In this document: in pieces, positions 7,860 to 12,576 of the stretch | How the letters are laid out: each line of letters starts with the position of its first letter | How positions within the stretch are numbered: the stretch's first letter is position 1 | Source: a virus | Virus record (IMG/VR): IMGVR_UViG_3300031857_001604 | Location: 1 to 21,606 of that record | Length of the DNA stretch: 21,606 nt | Strand: one strand, 5' to 3' | Translations under genes and position numbers: made by a program | The notes under the pieces: model-generated | Databases searched by the model: none | Seen by the model: the letters and a program-made list of their open reading frames with translations, nothing else | What the model was told of the DNA's origin: nothing

Positions 7860-8497
7860 TAAGTCACCGGAACCCTAACTTGACCAGAACGGTACGCATC
7901 CTGACGATCCAAGCCATCGCCAAGGCGCTTCAGTTGACCCAGCGACTCCTGATACTTTTGCTCGTAGTAGTTCATCATGTCTTCGGAGCCTTTCAAGTAG
8001 GTATAGGCTTCACGAAGCGAACCGTACAGCAGCACCGTCTCAAAGTTGGTGCCGAGCCAAGAAGTACCCGAGTTCACGATGGAAGTTGGGTAGTAGTAAT
8101 AGTGCAGTTCAATCGTATACGCCGCATCCGGAGTCGGCCCCAGCAACATCGTCGTGTCATCGAAGATGGCGTAGTAAGCAGGCTTGCCGGTGCTGGTCGG
8201 AGGCGGGTACGCCGCACGGATGTAGTTCACATCCTTATTGAGCAGGTACTCGTAATCCTGAGTCGTGGGGTCAATCACGGCCATTGAGAACGTCGAGAGC
8301 CAGTCTGATGGCAACGAGAGATATTGGTTCCCGTTGCTCGTGCTACCCGTCACGTTCTTACGAATGGCCGGAAGTTGAACCGTGTTGTAAATCCGCTCTT
8401 CAGCCAACTGCACAAACGTAGGAATATTCGCCACGAAGCTCTGCTCCGTGGACTCACAATAGTCCTGAATCAGCGTAGTAAGCTGAGAGTAGTTCAC
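7859..8497 (-). CDS. Head-tail adaptor-type protein, 212 aa
   Basis: Likely forms part of the ring joining the portal to the short tail. The N-terminal helices (YSQLTTLIQDYCESTEQSF, then FVQLAEERIYNTVQLPAIRK) are followed by a beta-rich middle (QYLSLPSDWLS, TTMLLGPTPDAAYTIELHYY) and C-terminal helices (VLLYGSLREAYTYLKG, MMNYYEQKYQESLGQLKRL). This helix-beta-helix plan with LPSDW and LLYGSLREAY segments matches phage adaptor proteins of the SU10 type and the gp11-like connector family. It starts with GTG overlapping the preceding stop (GTGA). Neighbours are a second connector candidate and the fibre genes. Confident as a connector, less so about which ring. Confidence 0.85.
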   Translation of the reverse strand: MNYSQLTTLIQDYCESTEQSFVANIPTFVQLAEERIYNTVQLPAIRKNVTGSTSNGNQYLSLPSDWLSTFSMAVIDPTTQDYEYLLNKDVNYIRAAYPPPTSTGKPAYYAIFDDTTMLLGPTPDAAYTIELHYYYYPTSIVNSGTSWLGTNFETVLLYGSLREAYTYLKGSEDMMNYYEQKYQESLGQLKRLGDGLDRQDAYRSGQVRVPVT

Positions 8498-8691
8498 GGC
8501 GACCAGCCCGCCCTGTACTTGGCGTTGTTCTCAAGGTTGATCTGCGACACGAACTTCTTACCCTTCGTGGCAGCACCAGCACCCTTCATTTCCATGTGGG
8601 TGACGCCCTTGTTCACATCCTTCTCCGGGTAGCCATTACGCCCCGTGGAGTCCGTGTTCGGCCTAATTTTGCCGGGATTCAGTTCTTTCAT
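8494..8691 (-). CDS. Small conserved basic phage protein, 65 aa
   Basis: Function unknown. Polar, Gly/Lys-rich chain with signature NTDSTGRNGYPEKDV and KGVTHMEMKGAGAATKGKKF, which I recognise as a recurring small protein of aquatic phages near connector genes. No membrane segment and no cysteines. ATG is five bases after the previous stop with GAGG about eight bases upstream; its stop overlaps the GTG of the adaptor gene. It could be a minor virion protein. Confidence 0.78.
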   Translation of the reverse strand: MKELNPGKIRPNTDSTGRNGYPEKDVNKGVTHMEMKGAGAATKGKKFVSQINLENNAKYRAGWSP

Positions 8692-8696
8692 GGCAA

Positions 8697-8873
8697 TTAC
8701 CTCGGGCCAGAAGAGCCGCGCATCGGGCTGCGTTGGTTCATCACCTTCGCCATACCGCGACCGTACTTCTTCATTTCGCTGTTGGTCTTGCCACCAGCAC
8801 GAAAGCCCTTGGCGTTCTTACCGTGGGCCTTATTCGCCGGAAGTTTGGCGTGTTCTTTTAAAGTCATAGCCAT
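8697..8873 (-). CDS. Very small basic phage protein, 58 aa
   Basis: Reads MAMTLKEHAKLPANKAHGKN, continuing AKGFRAGGKTNSEMKKYGRG and ending MAKVMNQRSPMRGSSGPR. It is strongly basic with no acidic stretch and no hydrophobic segment. The GGKTNSEMKKYGRGMAKVMNQR tail pattern is one I associate with small aquatic-phage proteins. It is supported as a gene by an AGGAG ribosome site nine bases after the previous stop, by filling the gap between two genes exactly, and by the same 17-base leader as the 151-aa structural gene. Function unknown; Lys/Arg content would suit binding DNA or an acidic virion surface. Confidence 0.75.
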   Translation of the reverse strand: MAMTLKEHAKLPANKAHGKNAKGFRAGGKTNSEMKKYGRGMAKVMNQRSPMRGSSGPR

Positions 8874-8882
8874 TTCAGTCTC

Positions 8883-9260
8883 CTAGGTCGTAACGACCGT
8901 AACCGTTCCAACTTCTCCAAACGGCGCTAAGTCGTTAGGAGTTAATCCTGCATCATCTGCTCTGGCCCCGCCTACGGGTGCCCAGCCCCATTGTATCTGA
9001 CGACTGCCATTCGCGCCGTCATTGCCCACCGCAAAGTAGCTCGTGTCCGGCCTTGGATTCCGCAACGCCTGCGGGTCGTCCACCGGGTAAAGACCAAGCG
9101 ACAACTGGGGCTGATCTGGCTCCCAGCACTCCGGACAGACCAAGATATTCACGTTCTTGGTCTTGATCACTAGCGACTTTAACTGGCGGAGTTTGTACTG
9201 AAACCCACACCGGTCGCACATCGCAATCGCGTGCTTGCCACTTGCAAACCTGTTCGGCAT
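8883..9260 (-). CDS. Four-cysteine zinc-ribbon-like phage protein, 125 aa
   Basis: Two CxxC knuckles, Cys15-x2-Cys18 (CDRCGFQYKLRQL) and Cys42-x2-Cys45 (CPECWEPDQPQL), separated by 23 residues with a predicted strand pair, make a classic zinc ribbon. After LGLYPVDDPQALRNPRPD the remaining half is low in charge, Gly/Ala-rich and probably extended (QIQWGWAPVGGARADDAG). I know similar proteins between connector genes of aquatic phages; none has an assigned function that I am sure of. The ATG overlaps the upstream stop as TAATG. The position suggests a structural connector component stabilised by zinc rather than a transcription factor, but that is inference. Confidence 0.82.
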   Translation of the reverse strand: MPNRFASGKHAIAMCDRCGFQYKLRQLKSLVIKTKNVNILVCPECWEPDQPQLSLGLYPVDDPQALRNPRPDTSYFAVGNDGANGSRQIQWGWAPVGGARADDAGLTPNDLAPFGEVGTVTVVTT

Positions 9261-9985
9261 TAGTAACCACCCAAGAAACTCTCACGTGGTACGAACCGCA
9301 CTGCCGCTTTTTCTCGGTCTTCGCCAGCCGCCAAATCCCAAGCCTCGTCGTACTGAGCCTTCAGCATTTGCGTGCGAGCGTCAGCATTCGGAATCTTCAT
9401 TGACAGCATATACGCCAAGCCTGCCACCATACAGGGCAAGAAGCGAAACGGAATATCTTGTCCATTCACACCTGTGCCGGGGTCAGTCATACGAACAAGG
9501 CGCGTGTAGAACAGTGTCCAAGTCGTGCTGTTGTCCGGTTTCGGCCACACCGTATATTGCGGGTAGATAATCGTACCAGCCGCATCCGTTGCACCCGTAC
9601 GACGATTGATCCAGATCTGAATCGGGCGACCCGTCGCATTCTTGTTCGGGATCGACACGTACGTGCTAGATGAGATACGCGAGATGTTGATGTCCTGCTG
9701 GTTCGTGCCAGACCCGGTGCGGATCACATGGTCAAGCAGGTCAACCGTATCTACCGGCAGGTCATACGTACCGACGTTGTACGTCAAAGTTTGGGTACCG
9801 GTCTCCAACGTCCAGAGGTTAATACCACGGTTTGCCCAGTCCATGAGCAATAGACCAAGACTGCGCTTGGCGGTACGGAAGTCGTAACCCGTCCGCAACT
9901 CAGCACCACAACGCTCAAAAGCCTCTTCGATGATCGTGTTGAGATCAAGGTTGAAGTCCGTCGTTGCTGTAGTCTTGTAGGCCAT
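9260..9985 (-). CDS. Head-tail connector / tail-tube-type structural protein, 241 aa
   Basis: The N-terminal helix pair (LDLNTIIEEAFERCGAELRT, then DFRTAKRSLGLLLMDWANRG) is followed by a beta-rich middle (LTYNVGTYDLPVDTVDLLDH, IIYPQYTVWPKPDNSTTWTL) and a C-terminal helical part (LPCMVAGLAYMLSMKIPNA, MLKAQYDEAWDLAAGEDREK). The plan resembles the adaptor at 7859-8497 and podoviral gp4/gp11-like connectors, and I recognise the ERCG.ELRTGYDFRTA start from uncultured phage structural proteins. It opens the connector block, after the small-gene island. Its stop overlaps the zinc-ribbon gene. The exact connector position (ring one, ring two or nozzle) cannot be read from sequence. Confidence 0.82.
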   Translation of the reverse strand: MAYKTTATTDFNLDLNTIIEEAFERCGAELRTGYDFRTAKRSLGLLLMDWANRGINLWTLETGTQTLTYNVGTYDLPVDTVDLLDHVIRTGSGTNQQDINISRISSSTYVSIPNKNATGRPIQIWINRRTGATDAAGTIIYPQYTVWPKPDNSTTWTLFYTRLVRMTDPGTGVNGQDIPFRFLPCMVAGLAYMLSMKIPNADARTQMLKAQYDEAWDLAAGEDREKAAVRFVPRESFLGGY

Positions 9986-9989
9986 TTAC

Positions 9990-10238
9990 TTACCCTTTGC
10001 CCCTTTGACGATACGCACGGGTTTTTTGCGATATACCCTTGGGCTGCGCGACGAACTGCTTGCCTTGGGCTTTGCCTCGTCGCTTGGCGGCAGTGGTTCG
10101 GGCGTACTCAGCAGGGCTGAGAGCTTTAATCGCAGCCTCTGGAAGATACCTTTCGCCCGTGTCAGAAGATCGTTTACCACTCTTCGTTCTCCACTTCTGG
10201 TCGCCCCAAGCCTTCAAGGACTGCTGCGGGGACTTCAT
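9990..10238 (-). CDS. Small basic phage protein with GERYLPEAAIKAL motif, 82 aa
   Basis: Function unknown. Strongly basic chain: QQSLKAWGDQKWRTKSGKRS, then a conserved block TGERYLPEAAIKALSPAEYA and a Lys/Arg/Gly-rich C-terminus (KRRGKAQGKQFVAQPKG). I recognise the W.QKWRTKSGK...TGERYLP pattern from many aquatic phages and some large eukaryotic viruses, always unassigned. The ATG overlaps the previous stop (ATGA). The -1 frame also stays open here (10180-9986), but this frame has the known motif. Confidence 0.78.
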   Translation of the reverse strand: MKSPQQSLKAWGDQKWRTKSGKRSSDTGERYLPEAAIKALSPAEYARTTAAKRRGKAQGKQFVAQPKGISQKTRAYRQRGKG

Positions 10239-10492: not shown

Positions 10493-10902
10493 TTGCTTGC
10501 CCTAACCACATCATCACCCTTGGTGACGGTCACATGGTCGCCCTCGACATCGACCCTCATGGGCATTTCCTTGCGATCCAGCCGATCCAACTTGGCGATA
10601 AGTTCCTTGATGACCGCGTACTCGGGCTTCTCTTCCTTCTCAACCGTGCCTGCAATGCCGTTCAGCATCGAGATCAAAGCGGTCAGAGACGCGCCAAGCA
10701 GCCCCATCACGGCAGCGATCTTGTCGTTATCCAAGAAGAGGCTAGAGACGACGCCAATCACGACGATGGCTGTAATGTACTTCAGACCGTCTTTGCCGAT
10801 AGCCTTACCAGCAACAGTCTTAGCAGACGCCTTGGCCTCAAGCCGATTTAGTTCAGCCTGAACCTGCGCTTTGAAAAGTTCGATGTCAGTCCCGGTATCC
10901 AC
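10489..10902 (-). CDS. Two-TM membrane protein, holin candidate, 137 aa
   Basis: A charged amphipathic N-terminal helix (FKAQVQAELNRLEAKASAKT) precedes two hydrophobic helices at about 41-57 (KYITAIVVIGVVSSLFL) and 62-84 (IAAVMGLLGASLTALISMLN). A charged helix (YAVIKELIAKLDRLDRKEM) and a short strand-rich tail (VDVEGDHVTVTKGDDV) follow. A two-TM hairpin with charged ends is the class II holin topology, but similar small proteins also occur in phages with unknown function. The start is GTG at 10902, with GGAG seven bases upstream; the gene begins 17 bases inside the preceding one. A GTA-type holin is also encoded at the left edge, so this may not be the main lysis pore. Confidence 0.8.
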   Translation of the reverse strand: MDTGTDIELFKAQVQAELNRLEAKASAKTVAGKAIGKDGLKYITAIVVIGVVSSLFLDNDKIAAVMGLLGASLTALISMLNGIAGTVEKEEKPEYAVIKELIAKLDRLDRKEMPMRVDVEGDHVTVTKGDDVVRASK

Positions 10903-11182
10903 CGCCCTTCTCCTTGTACCGCTTGGCTAACAACTGCGCCTTACGCGCTGACCACTGCCCTGCACCGGTGCCCTGCGTTGCCGAAGCCTTGATGGACTCA
11001 AACAACTTCTTACGCATACCCGGCTTGGTGTAGTTGCCAGCCTGATTGACCTTCGACTCGCCGCCTTTCTTAAAGGTGCGGATGGGCTTACCCGTGCCTT
11101 CTACAGGCTTAGAGTCCCCCCGGCGTTTAGCACGGGGGATCTTCTTCGGACTAATTGCACCCATTCCGCGAGAGGGCATCAT
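10886..11182 (-). CDS. Conserved basic phage protein with WSARKAQLLAKRY motif, 98 aa
   Basis: Function unknown. The N-terminus is Lys/Arg-rich and disordered-looking (ISPKKIPRAKRRGDSK). The conserved part reads KVNQAGNYTKPGMRKKLFES, then TGAGQWSARKAQLLAKRYKE and ends KGGGYRD. I recognise both blocks from small proteins of aquatic phages and of large algal viruses; the repeated Trp, Lys and Gly positions suggest a compact helical fold that may bind nucleic acid, which is inference. I chose the ATG at 11182, which overlaps the upstream stop as TAATG; a GTG at 11188 is in frame and would add two residues. Confidence 0.82.
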   Translation of the reverse strand: MMPSRGMGAISPKKIPRAKRRGDSKPVEGTGKPIRTFKKGGESKVNQAGNYTKPGMRKKLFESIKASATQGTGAGQWSARKAQLLAKRYKEKGGGYRD

Positions 11183-11793
11183 TAGCACATCTTCCCACGA
11201 GTCTTACCGCGCTGTGCGATACCGTCAGCACGCTTAGAAGCGGAGCCGACTGAGCCGCCCTTGCGATAACTCATCGCTTCACGGGCTTCACGAACGCGCT
11301 TGGCCTTACGCTCAGACTCATTTGAGCCGCGAGCAAGACGCTCATAAACGCTATCCGTATTCTTCATGCTGCTGGTCGAACCACGGATTGACGCGCCAAT
11401 CTTCTCATCAATCTTGGCTTCAACCTTCTTAGACGCTTCAGGATCACGAGCGCCGCCGCGACGGGGGACACCGCGACTACCAGCGCCAGCCTTATCCGTC
11501 ACCTTGTCCATCTCGTAAATCTTAGAGAAGTCAGGACGCTTGCTAGTCACTTCAACTTCGGTCAAGGACTTCTCGGCCTTTTTAGCCTTATCTTCCTTGG
11601 TGTCTGTTGAGTATTCCTTGCCACGCCATGTGAAAGTCTTCAGGCCCTGTTTGCGAGCAGCGCGAAAGGCTTCGCCAAAACTGATGTTTGTGCCACCGGC
11701 ACTGCCGGACTCGGCGTAATCAGTCGCACCGCCTTCTTCAAACTTACGCATGCGCTTCTTTGTGCCGAAGCCACGGCTACCAAAACCTTTCAT
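11182..11793 (-). CDS. Basic protein with RADG-RGKTRGKM C-terminal tag, 203 aa (largest of three tagged paralogues)
   Basis: Function unknown. It opens with MKGFGSRGFGTKKRMRKFEE. Residues about 38-66 hold a recognisable small block (SFGEAFRAARKQGLKTFTWR, then GKEYSTDTKED) that recurs in aquatic-phage proteins. The middle (70-180) is highly charged and probably disordered or helical, with Arg/Lys/Glu-rich helices. The last 20 residues (SASKRADGIAQRGKTRGKMC) match the ends of the next two upstream proteins, preceded by the same Y[RK]KGG motif. It ends in Cys, with no other Cys in the chain. The ATG overlaps the previous stop (ATGA). Composition and expression-unit position suggest a minor virion or assembly protein, but this is unproven. 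Confidence 0.8.
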   Translation of the reverse strand: MKGFGSRGFGTKKRMRKFEEGGATDYAESGSAGGTNISFGEAFRAARKQGLKTFTWRGKEYSTDTKEDKAKKAEKSLTEVEVTSKRPDFSKIYEMDKVTDKAGAGSRGVPRRGGARDPEASKKVEAKIDEKIGASIRGSTSSMKNTDSVYERLARGSNESERKAKRVREAREAMSYRKGGSVGSASKRADGIAQRGKTRGKMC

Positions 11794-12110
11794 ACCATCT
11801 TACCTCGTGTTTTGCCGCGAACAGCGCAGCCATCAGCACGTTTGGAAGCGGAGCCGCCACCGGCCATCTTCTTGACCTTACCGCCCTTCTTATAGCCCGG
11901 CGAGTCAGACTCGGAACTACGGCCAAAACGCTCGTAAGCTTCCTGCATCTTGGTGGACATATCACTGTCCTCGACAGCCTGCATTGCCTCACGACGCTTT
12001 TTATCAGCCTCGTTCTGACCGGGATAACGCCGCCGACCTTGCGGACCTTTTGAAAGCGGTCTAACAGGTTCAGGGGGTTTTTTGATATGTCCGCCCATTT
12101 TGTACTTCAT
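11790..12110 (-). CDS. Basic protein with RADG-RGKTRGKM C-terminal tag, 106 aa
   Basis: Function unknown. Begins MKYKMGGHIKKPPEPVRPLS and carries a charged helical middle (NEADKKRREAMQAVEDSDMS, then KMQEAYERFGRSS). It ends YKKGGKVKKMAGGGS followed by ASKRADGCAVRGKTRGKMV. The C-terminal 25 or so residues are almost the same as in the 203-aa downstream protein, so the two are paralogues or share a swapped tag. I place the start at the ATG overlapping the upstream stop as TGATG; a GTG six bases earlier (12116) is the alternative. No strong Shine-Dalgarno, so translational coupling is likely. Confidence 0.78.
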   Translation of the reverse strand: MKYKMGGHIKKPPEPVRPLSKGPQGRRRYPGQNEADKKRREAMQAVEDSDMSTKMQEAYERFGRSSESDSPGYKKGGKVKKMAGGGSASKRADGCAVRGKTRGKMV

Positions 12111-12430
12111 CAGCACTTACCGCCGTAGTTCATACGAACCATCTTGACCTTGGTCTTGCCCTTAGAGGCGATACCGTCAGCGGCCTTACGGAAGGAACCA
12201 CCGGCCATACCGCCCTTCTTCATGCCGTACTCGGCTTTCTCGTGCTTGATCATGGACTTCGGAGCGCCCTTCTTCTTCATGAAGGAGATCTCTTTCTTGG
12301 CCATTGCTTTTGACTCGGCCTTACCGCCCTTCTTCATGCCCATCTGGGGCTGCGGAGCCATCATTGCGCGGCCAGCACGGTCGGCCATACGCGCTTTCGC
12401 CATATTCATCGCTTTCGGTGACATGCCCAT
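12110..12430 (-). CDS. Met/Lys/Gly-rich basic protein with related C-terminal tag, 106 aa
   Basis: Function unknown. An unusually methionine-rich chain: MGMSPKAMNMAKARMADRAG, then MMAPQPQMGMKKGGKAESKA. The motif MKKGG occurs twice (within MGMKKGGKAE and YGMKKGGMAGG). Residues 79-98 (SFRKAADGIASKGKTKVKMV) are a diverged copy of the tag in the next two genes, followed by RMNYGGKC, a terminal-Cys end. The alternation of Met, Ala, Lys and Gly gives short amphipathic helices, with one more ordered-looking helix at about 46-68 (KEISFMKKKGAPKSMIKHEK). The start ATG has GAGG about eight bases upstream, inside the preceding gene's end. Confidence 0.78.
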   Translation of the reverse strand: MGMSPKAMNMAKARMADRAGRAMMAPQPQMGMKKGGKAESKAMAKKEISFMKKKGAPKSMIKHEKAEYGMKKGGMAGGSFRKAADGIASKGKTKVKMVRMNYGGKC

Positions 12431-12432
12431 GA

Positions 12433-12576
12433 TTATTTCCTCTTAAATTTGCGGCCTTTGTCGGCCTTGACGTACTCTTTGCCCACTTTTTGTGGGATAC
12501 CCAATCGCTTGGCTGCTTTCGGATCGTTAGCGACCAAGGCCATTAGTCGGTGCTGTTTGCCTGACTTACTTGGCAT
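12433..12576 (-). CDS. Tiny basic phage protein, 47 aa
   Basis: Reads MPSKSGKQHRLMALVANDPK, continuing AAKRLGIPQKVGKEYVKADK and ending GRKFKRK. The pattern [K/A]QHR.M...A..P..AKR.GIPQ.VG.[E/D][F/Y]V.ADKG is one I know from many phages, where it is an unassigned 50-80-aa protein. It overlaps the 78-aa membrane protein by 11 bases and ends two bases before the next ATG, so it fills an otherwise empty slot exactly. Strongly basic; function unknown. Confidence 0.85.
   Translation of the reverse strand: MPSKSGKQHRLMALVANDPKAAKRLGIPQKVGKEYVKADKGRKFKRK

Follow-up and report, generated by a model that had tools for sequence, protein, structure and literature searches.

The 21,606-nucleotide stretch of viral DNA analyzed here (IMG/VR virus record IMGVR_UViG_3300031857_001604, positions 1 to 21,606; the window) is a block of virion genes from a podovirus-like phage, encoded on the minus strand. 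Three consecutive genes in the interval between its capsid and neck genes encode small proteins that end in, or close to, a common basic peptide of about 20 residues, referred to here as the tag. The genes and their tags are located as follows.

12110-12430, minus strand: tagged gene 1, 106 amino acids (aa), with a long-type tag; body cluster 0, a large family of long-type proteins
12137-12187, minus strand: long-type tag core KAADGIASKGKTKVKMV, residues 82-98 of gene 1, followed by RMNYGGKC and the stop
11790-12110, minus strand: tagged gene 2, 106 aa from its ATG; body cluster 2
11793-11852, minus strand: C-type tag of gene 2, SASKRADGCAVRGKTRGKMV, then the stop
11182-11793, minus strand: tagged gene 3, 203 aa, its N-terminal part with a FGEAFRAARKQGLKTFTWRGKEYST module common to other tagged proteins
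11185-11244, minus strand: C-type tag of gene 3, SASKRADGIAQRGKTRGKMC, then the stop

An earlier note on this DNA had described the tag on three adjacent proteins with unrelated bodies, and its description is borne out. The minus-strand open reading frames (ORFs) are as described, and BLASTP alignment of the three proteins against each other is essentially confined to the C-terminal stretch; full-length homology, which the note had named as the finding that would overturn its reading, was looked for in this way and not found. That the tag is real is practically beyond doubt. The stops of genes 1 and 2 overlap the ATG of the following gene. A homolog of gene 3 in a related locus (L071) has about 70 N-terminal residues in common with it, followed by a divergent middle and then the tag. 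The AF2 model of tagged protein 2 is of low confidence (predicted local distance difference test score, pLDDT, 60), with a single helix at residues 34-65 and the tag as coil.

Form and distribution of the tag

An IMG/VR scan with the second tagged protein returned at least 411 relatives, whose matches were mostly restricted to approximately residues 72-106, and added IMG/VR scans with tag alignments and with the major capsid protein (MCP) led to the 366 sequences studied. On these contigs, a tag profile with a cut-off of 15 bits identified 710 non-redundant tags in 276 loci. The matches are not due to chance, given that reversed ORFs reach only 13.8 bits, while typical C-type tags score approximately 50-65 bits. 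The tag consensus is KRADGCATKGKTRGKMV, with a core of KRADG[CI]A.[KR]GKT[KR]G[KR]; it is usually preceded by a KKGG-type linker and usually forms the exact C-terminus. Approximately six of every 20 residues are Lys or Arg, the two being interchangeable at several positions.

In most tags (425/710; C-type) the stop comes exactly five residues past GKT; in 43 it comes after two residues (GKTRA, then the stop), in 137 after 12-16 residues (long type, with GG.C before the stop), and 105 take other forms. The copy in gene 1, previously taken for a diverged one, belongs to the long type, which is distinct and recurrent rather than decayed. The expectation that the tag always ends proteins nearly holds, the departures being the long type and a core copy near the N-terminus in about 24 loci. 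Free variation of the tag, the other finding that the note had named as overturning its reading, was not seen either: R, D, G, G, and T are invariant in 236 of 236 C-type tags, a set picked with a pattern that itself demanded these residues, for which the looser profile counts are a fairer guide to variation. No match to the tag was found among Pfam, PHROG, and PDB sequences, and a literature search did not find its motif strings.

The N-terminal core copy belongs to a small protein encoded beside the adaptor gene (L028, 6432-6654, and about 23 others) and is followed by NLGDSGPTV; the window homolog of this protein (8697-8873) is without it. Pelagiphage HTVC023P (L004) encodes three different small proteins (21655-22392, 32480-32863, and 33143-33508) with a common RGxGAAxRGxxFxG motif near or at their C-termini, possibly an analogous tag, and a 65-aa protein of the window (8494-8691) contains a similar KGAGAATKGKKF.

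All tagged loci of at least 9 kb (153/153) carry the MCP or neck gene of a single podovirus-like lineage, and 440 of their 469 tags lie between these two genes. Tags outside this slot are mostly the N-terminal core copy in the adaptor-side protein (FKKSADGIAKKGKTEGKNLGDSGPTV...). Most loci were fetched via the tag itself, and the MCP scan provides the unbiased test: among MCP-selected loci with at least 4 kb downstream of the MCP, 28 of 30 have one to four tags, all of them 0-6 kb downstream of the MCP and none elsewhere. The contig of one tagless locus (L179) ends before the slot; the other (L198) has a degenerate tag (...GIESKGKTKCKMR, then the stop) and an untagged FGEAF-body protein ending in YRRGGKMK. 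MCP identity across tagged loci is 75-100%, the nearest isolate MCPs being those of MinM2 (74%), DSL-LC04 (66%), and others (62-63%). The tag was not found in isolate phage records at E-values up to 10, a search in which a short query does retrieve itself and from which records very near the window were possibly left out. Across 84,980 bacterial and archaeal genomes only four contigs matched, one of them a probable chimera: a tagged acyltransferase (L092, 6584-8425, from a Patulibacter metagenome-assembled genome) was set aside, since at the end of its contig a cut-off bacterial ORF runs into the tag, most likely through chimeric assembly.

Body turnover and codon usage

The 498 bodies that carry C-type tags fall into 199 clusters, including 146 singletons, and nearly all of these roughly 200 families are without a Pfam or PHROG match. 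Turnover is rapid enough that 54% of locus pairs with 90-95% identical MCPs have no tagged body cluster in common. A body containing YRKPT (66% identity) bears the tag in the tagged lineage and another C-terminus in phage DSL-LC04. Cluster 5 (11 members) consists of fusions of a DUF6321 protein to the tag in relatives; only these fusions match PF19846 (DUF6321) among tagged proteins of relatives, and none of the three tagged window proteins does so. Among representative bodies, 86% have a net positive charge and 82% are classed as disordered by a crude charge-hydropathy rule; the MCP, portal, and putative scaffold are acidic. Many long-type tagged proteins in relatives begin with an MPSKSxKQ module, which matches PHROGs annotated as virion structural protein. 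For 148 tagged proteins, PADLOC yielded no more than two weak matches to known defense and counter-defense functions.

Several tagged bodies (L095, 1170-1541; L011, 5920-6306; L071; and others) are mosaics of short recurring modules. One such module, PDLTGDGKVTRADVLKGRGVF, is calcium-binding or dockerin-like in appearance, and another, FGEAF..ARK.G.KTF.W.GK.Y.T, also occurs in Rhizobium, Roseobacter, and gut phages.

At conserved tag positions, the fraction of identical codons between contigs is 0.45, compared with 0.41 expected from codon usage. Synonymous codons are thus nearly saturated while the amino acids are kept, and selection acts on the peptide, not the DNA. This rules out the tag as a DNA or RNA element, with the exception of a Shine-Dalgarno-like codon at its last Gly. 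The Gly codon near the tag end is GGA or GGG in 169 of 216 cases if a start follows closely and in 12 of 31 otherwise; at the other tag glycines these codons account for 34 of 480. The start of the next gene overlaps the stop of the tagged gene in 145 of 240 cases. Given the enrichment of GGA and GGG near starts, the end of the tag probably doubles as a ribosome-binding site for the next gene, and these last codons are evidence of translational coupling. Similarity is higher among the tags within a contig than among permuted tags (0.77 vs. 0.70; maximum 0.72 in 1000), their codon identity is 0.45 vs. 0.38 expected, and 1% of the within-contig pairs look like recent copies. This likeness is consistent with tags adapted to a single partner within each genome.

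Genes surrounding the tagged trio

Along the minus strand, the gene order is terminase, portal, GroES-like protein, possible scaffold, MCP, DUF6321 protein, tagged trio, phrog_17747 protein, adaptor-like pair, and tail genes.

21487-19979, minus strand: terminase large subunit
19968-17395, minus strand: portal (phrog_1216)
17258-16827, minus strand: GroES-like co-chaperonin, between portal and scaffold
16816-15842, minus strand: putative scaffold, assigned by position and acidic composition
14703-13795, minus strand: MCP (Phage_capsid_4 and Mu-like gpT), the anchor upstream of the slot
13058-12804, minus strand: DUF6321 protein (PF19846, E = 3e-20), upstream of the slot
12433-12576, minus strand: 47-aa ORF beginning MPSKSGKQ (phrog_16759, phrog_22033, phrog_25121; phiKZ165.1; 121Q gp51)
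10886-11188, minus strand: basic protein (phrog_17747), the downstream border of the slot
9260-9985, minus strand: neck/adaptor-like protein (SU10_adaptor, E = 8e-9), the anchor downstream of the slot
8497-7859, minus strand: second SU10_adaptor-like protein

The closest isolates by terminase, at approximately 50% identity, are DSL-LC04, 023Pt_psg01, HTVC027P, and HTVC023P. Beyond the tail genes, the window encodes a 2OG-Fe(II) oxygenase-like protein (469-1128). Proteins approximately 80% identical to the DUF6321 protein occur in unrelated aquatic phages, for the most part cyanophages and pelagiphages (548 isolate records), and DUF6321 also makes up the C-terminal end of considerably larger proteins. 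The AF2 model of DUF6321, made with alignment rows from the fetched loci only, is helical (pLDDT 77) and has no fold match in the PDB. The MPSKSGKQ module of the 47-aa ORF also constitutes phiKZ165.1 and the start of structural proteins in 121Q-like jumbo phages, and it is found in jumbo phage proteins that have a head annotation; contigs of the tagged lineage are approximately 50-65 kb.

Proposed docking in the head and competing explanations

Fixed residues, a fixed end, a flexible linker, and swappable bodies beside the capsid gene, all within a single lineage, suggest that the tag directs its carriers to a structural partner in this lineage. It is likely that it acts, as a peptide, as a docking signal of some kind. 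The shared docking or sorting function proposed in the earlier note is strongly upheld in that the tag is kept on some 199 body families, ends precisely at the C-terminus, and is conserved as a peptide and not as DNA, but it is not upheld as regards the docking target. That the tag recruits interchangeable, mostly basic, disordered proteins into the head is a more specific proposal with about an even chance of being correct, in which we infer both the partner and the location in the virion. The tag, following its flexible KKGG-type linker, would bind its carriers to a single structural partner while the head assembles, and the small proteins would then be carried inside the virion or on it. 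The interval between MCP and neck would serve as a cargo slot in which bodies are often swapped while the tag is retained. Delivery to the host would follow as the least certain step, and it is a tentative, rather doubtful extension that the tag is a viral cargo-delivery address, loading fast-changing effectors (for instance, anti-defense proteins) into the heads, and then the hosts, of a widespread uncultured lineage. The slot beside the capsid genes favors the head as docking site, while the basic tag leaves DNA open. Further hints are the MPSKSxKQ module in virion-annotated PHROGs and the opposite charges of the tagged bodies and the MCP, portal, and scaffold.

Several observations weigh against docking in the head. 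In a partner test based on distance matrices over a common set of loci, no partner stood out: the best candidate was a 219-aa protein preceding the MCP (rho 0.235, p = 0.019, uncorrected), and the confidence interval for the difference between head and downstream proteins included 0; an apparent head signal from unequal locus sets did not hold firmly on the common set. Sister phages with 62-74% identical MCPs manage without the tag, and shared ancestry could partly explain the similarity of tags within a contig. The tag is also strongly basic, so DNA binding accounts for part of the pattern. A prohead protease of the T4 kind was not recognized in the window, nor was a separate protease gene among the portal-MCP genes tested, of which the MCP weakly matches a head-protease fusion PHROG.

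The closest parallels come from two known systems. The T4 internal proteins are small and basic, with differing bodies and a 10-residue targeting sequence (PMC9026906). IPI, IPII, and IPIII thus resemble the present set in having a short terminal tag common to small basic proteins with different, variable bodies; however, the T4 capsid-targeting sequence lies at the N-terminus and is cut off by the prohead protease, while the present tag is C-terminal and unrelated in sequence. The cargo-loading peptides of Family 1 encapsulins are short, C-terminal, carried by different proteins, and act on an HK97-fold shell; their consensus is SDGSLGIGSLKRS (PMC8346489). The tag shares the C-terminal position, but SDGSLGIGSLKRS bears no resemblance to the tag KRADGCAVKGKTKGRMV. 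Encapsulin cargo consists of enzymes, whereas the present system is a virus with terminase and portal. In both cases the likeness is one of working and not of membership, since the sequence differs and, for T4, so does the protein end; the tag is homologous to neither. Cargo or ejection proteins of crassviruses and of P22 and T7 are likewise stored in the head and ejected (PMC10172136). As far as covered by the parts of that source consulted, these are few and large, with no common terminal tag described, in contrast to the many small and exchangeable tagged proteins. DUF6321 (PF19846), which lies beside the slot and at times occurs as a fusion with the tag, is also a short, basic, conserved C-terminal module on different aquatic phage proteins, but it spans approximately 80 residues, is predicted to be helical, and is widespread in isolate records, where the tag is absent.

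The strongest rival holds that the tag is a DNA-binding tail: through it the proteins would coat or condense phage DNA, without requiring a partner protein. Its Lys/Arg content and the interchange of these residues agree with this, as do the conserved neighbors (DUF6321, 10886-11188, and 9990-10238), whose basic charge is higher still (+16 to +21 per 100 aa). However, charge alone would require neither the invariant D, G, G, and T nor the hydrophobic end and the precise spacing from the stop, and the tag is limited to one virus lineage, yet DNA is common to all; we consider a DNA-binding tail unlikely. The partner might instead lie outside the head: it could be a neck protein, a chaperone of phage or host, or another host protein, with the tagged proteins acting in late infection and not in the virion. 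In favor of this, the block also holds conserved neck/adaptor and GroES genes, and in about 24 loci the adaptor-side protein has its N-terminal core copy, but the slot is fixed within the virion structural block beside the MCP and one body module occurs in families annotated as virion proteins, which makes a partner of this kind unlikely as well, slightly more so than the DNA-binding tail.

Much less probable is that the tag serves mainly as a cassette connector, its DNA supplying a Shine-Dalgarno sequence and an overlapping start that aid gene shuffling, with little role for the peptide. The codon bias at the near-end Gly and the frequent overlap of starts and stops are what such a connector would show, but near-random codons elsewhere, combined with invariant amino acids, largely refute it, and few within-contig pairs have the look of recent copies. 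That the three window proteins arose by plain duplication and divergence of one gene is scarcely credible: some bodies do have short modules and KGG linkers in common, but BLASTP places the homology in the tag only, which rules out duplication, the bodies of the lineage form many clusters, and DUF6321 proteins also carry tags.

If the tag does dock proteins in the head, it would offer a new C-terminal signal by which proteins can be loaded into the heads of phages. The tag sequence alone would then flag unknown proteins of a common uncultured lineage as virion cargo, and the catalog of approximately 200 body families would provide candidates for roles in host takeover or anti-defense.
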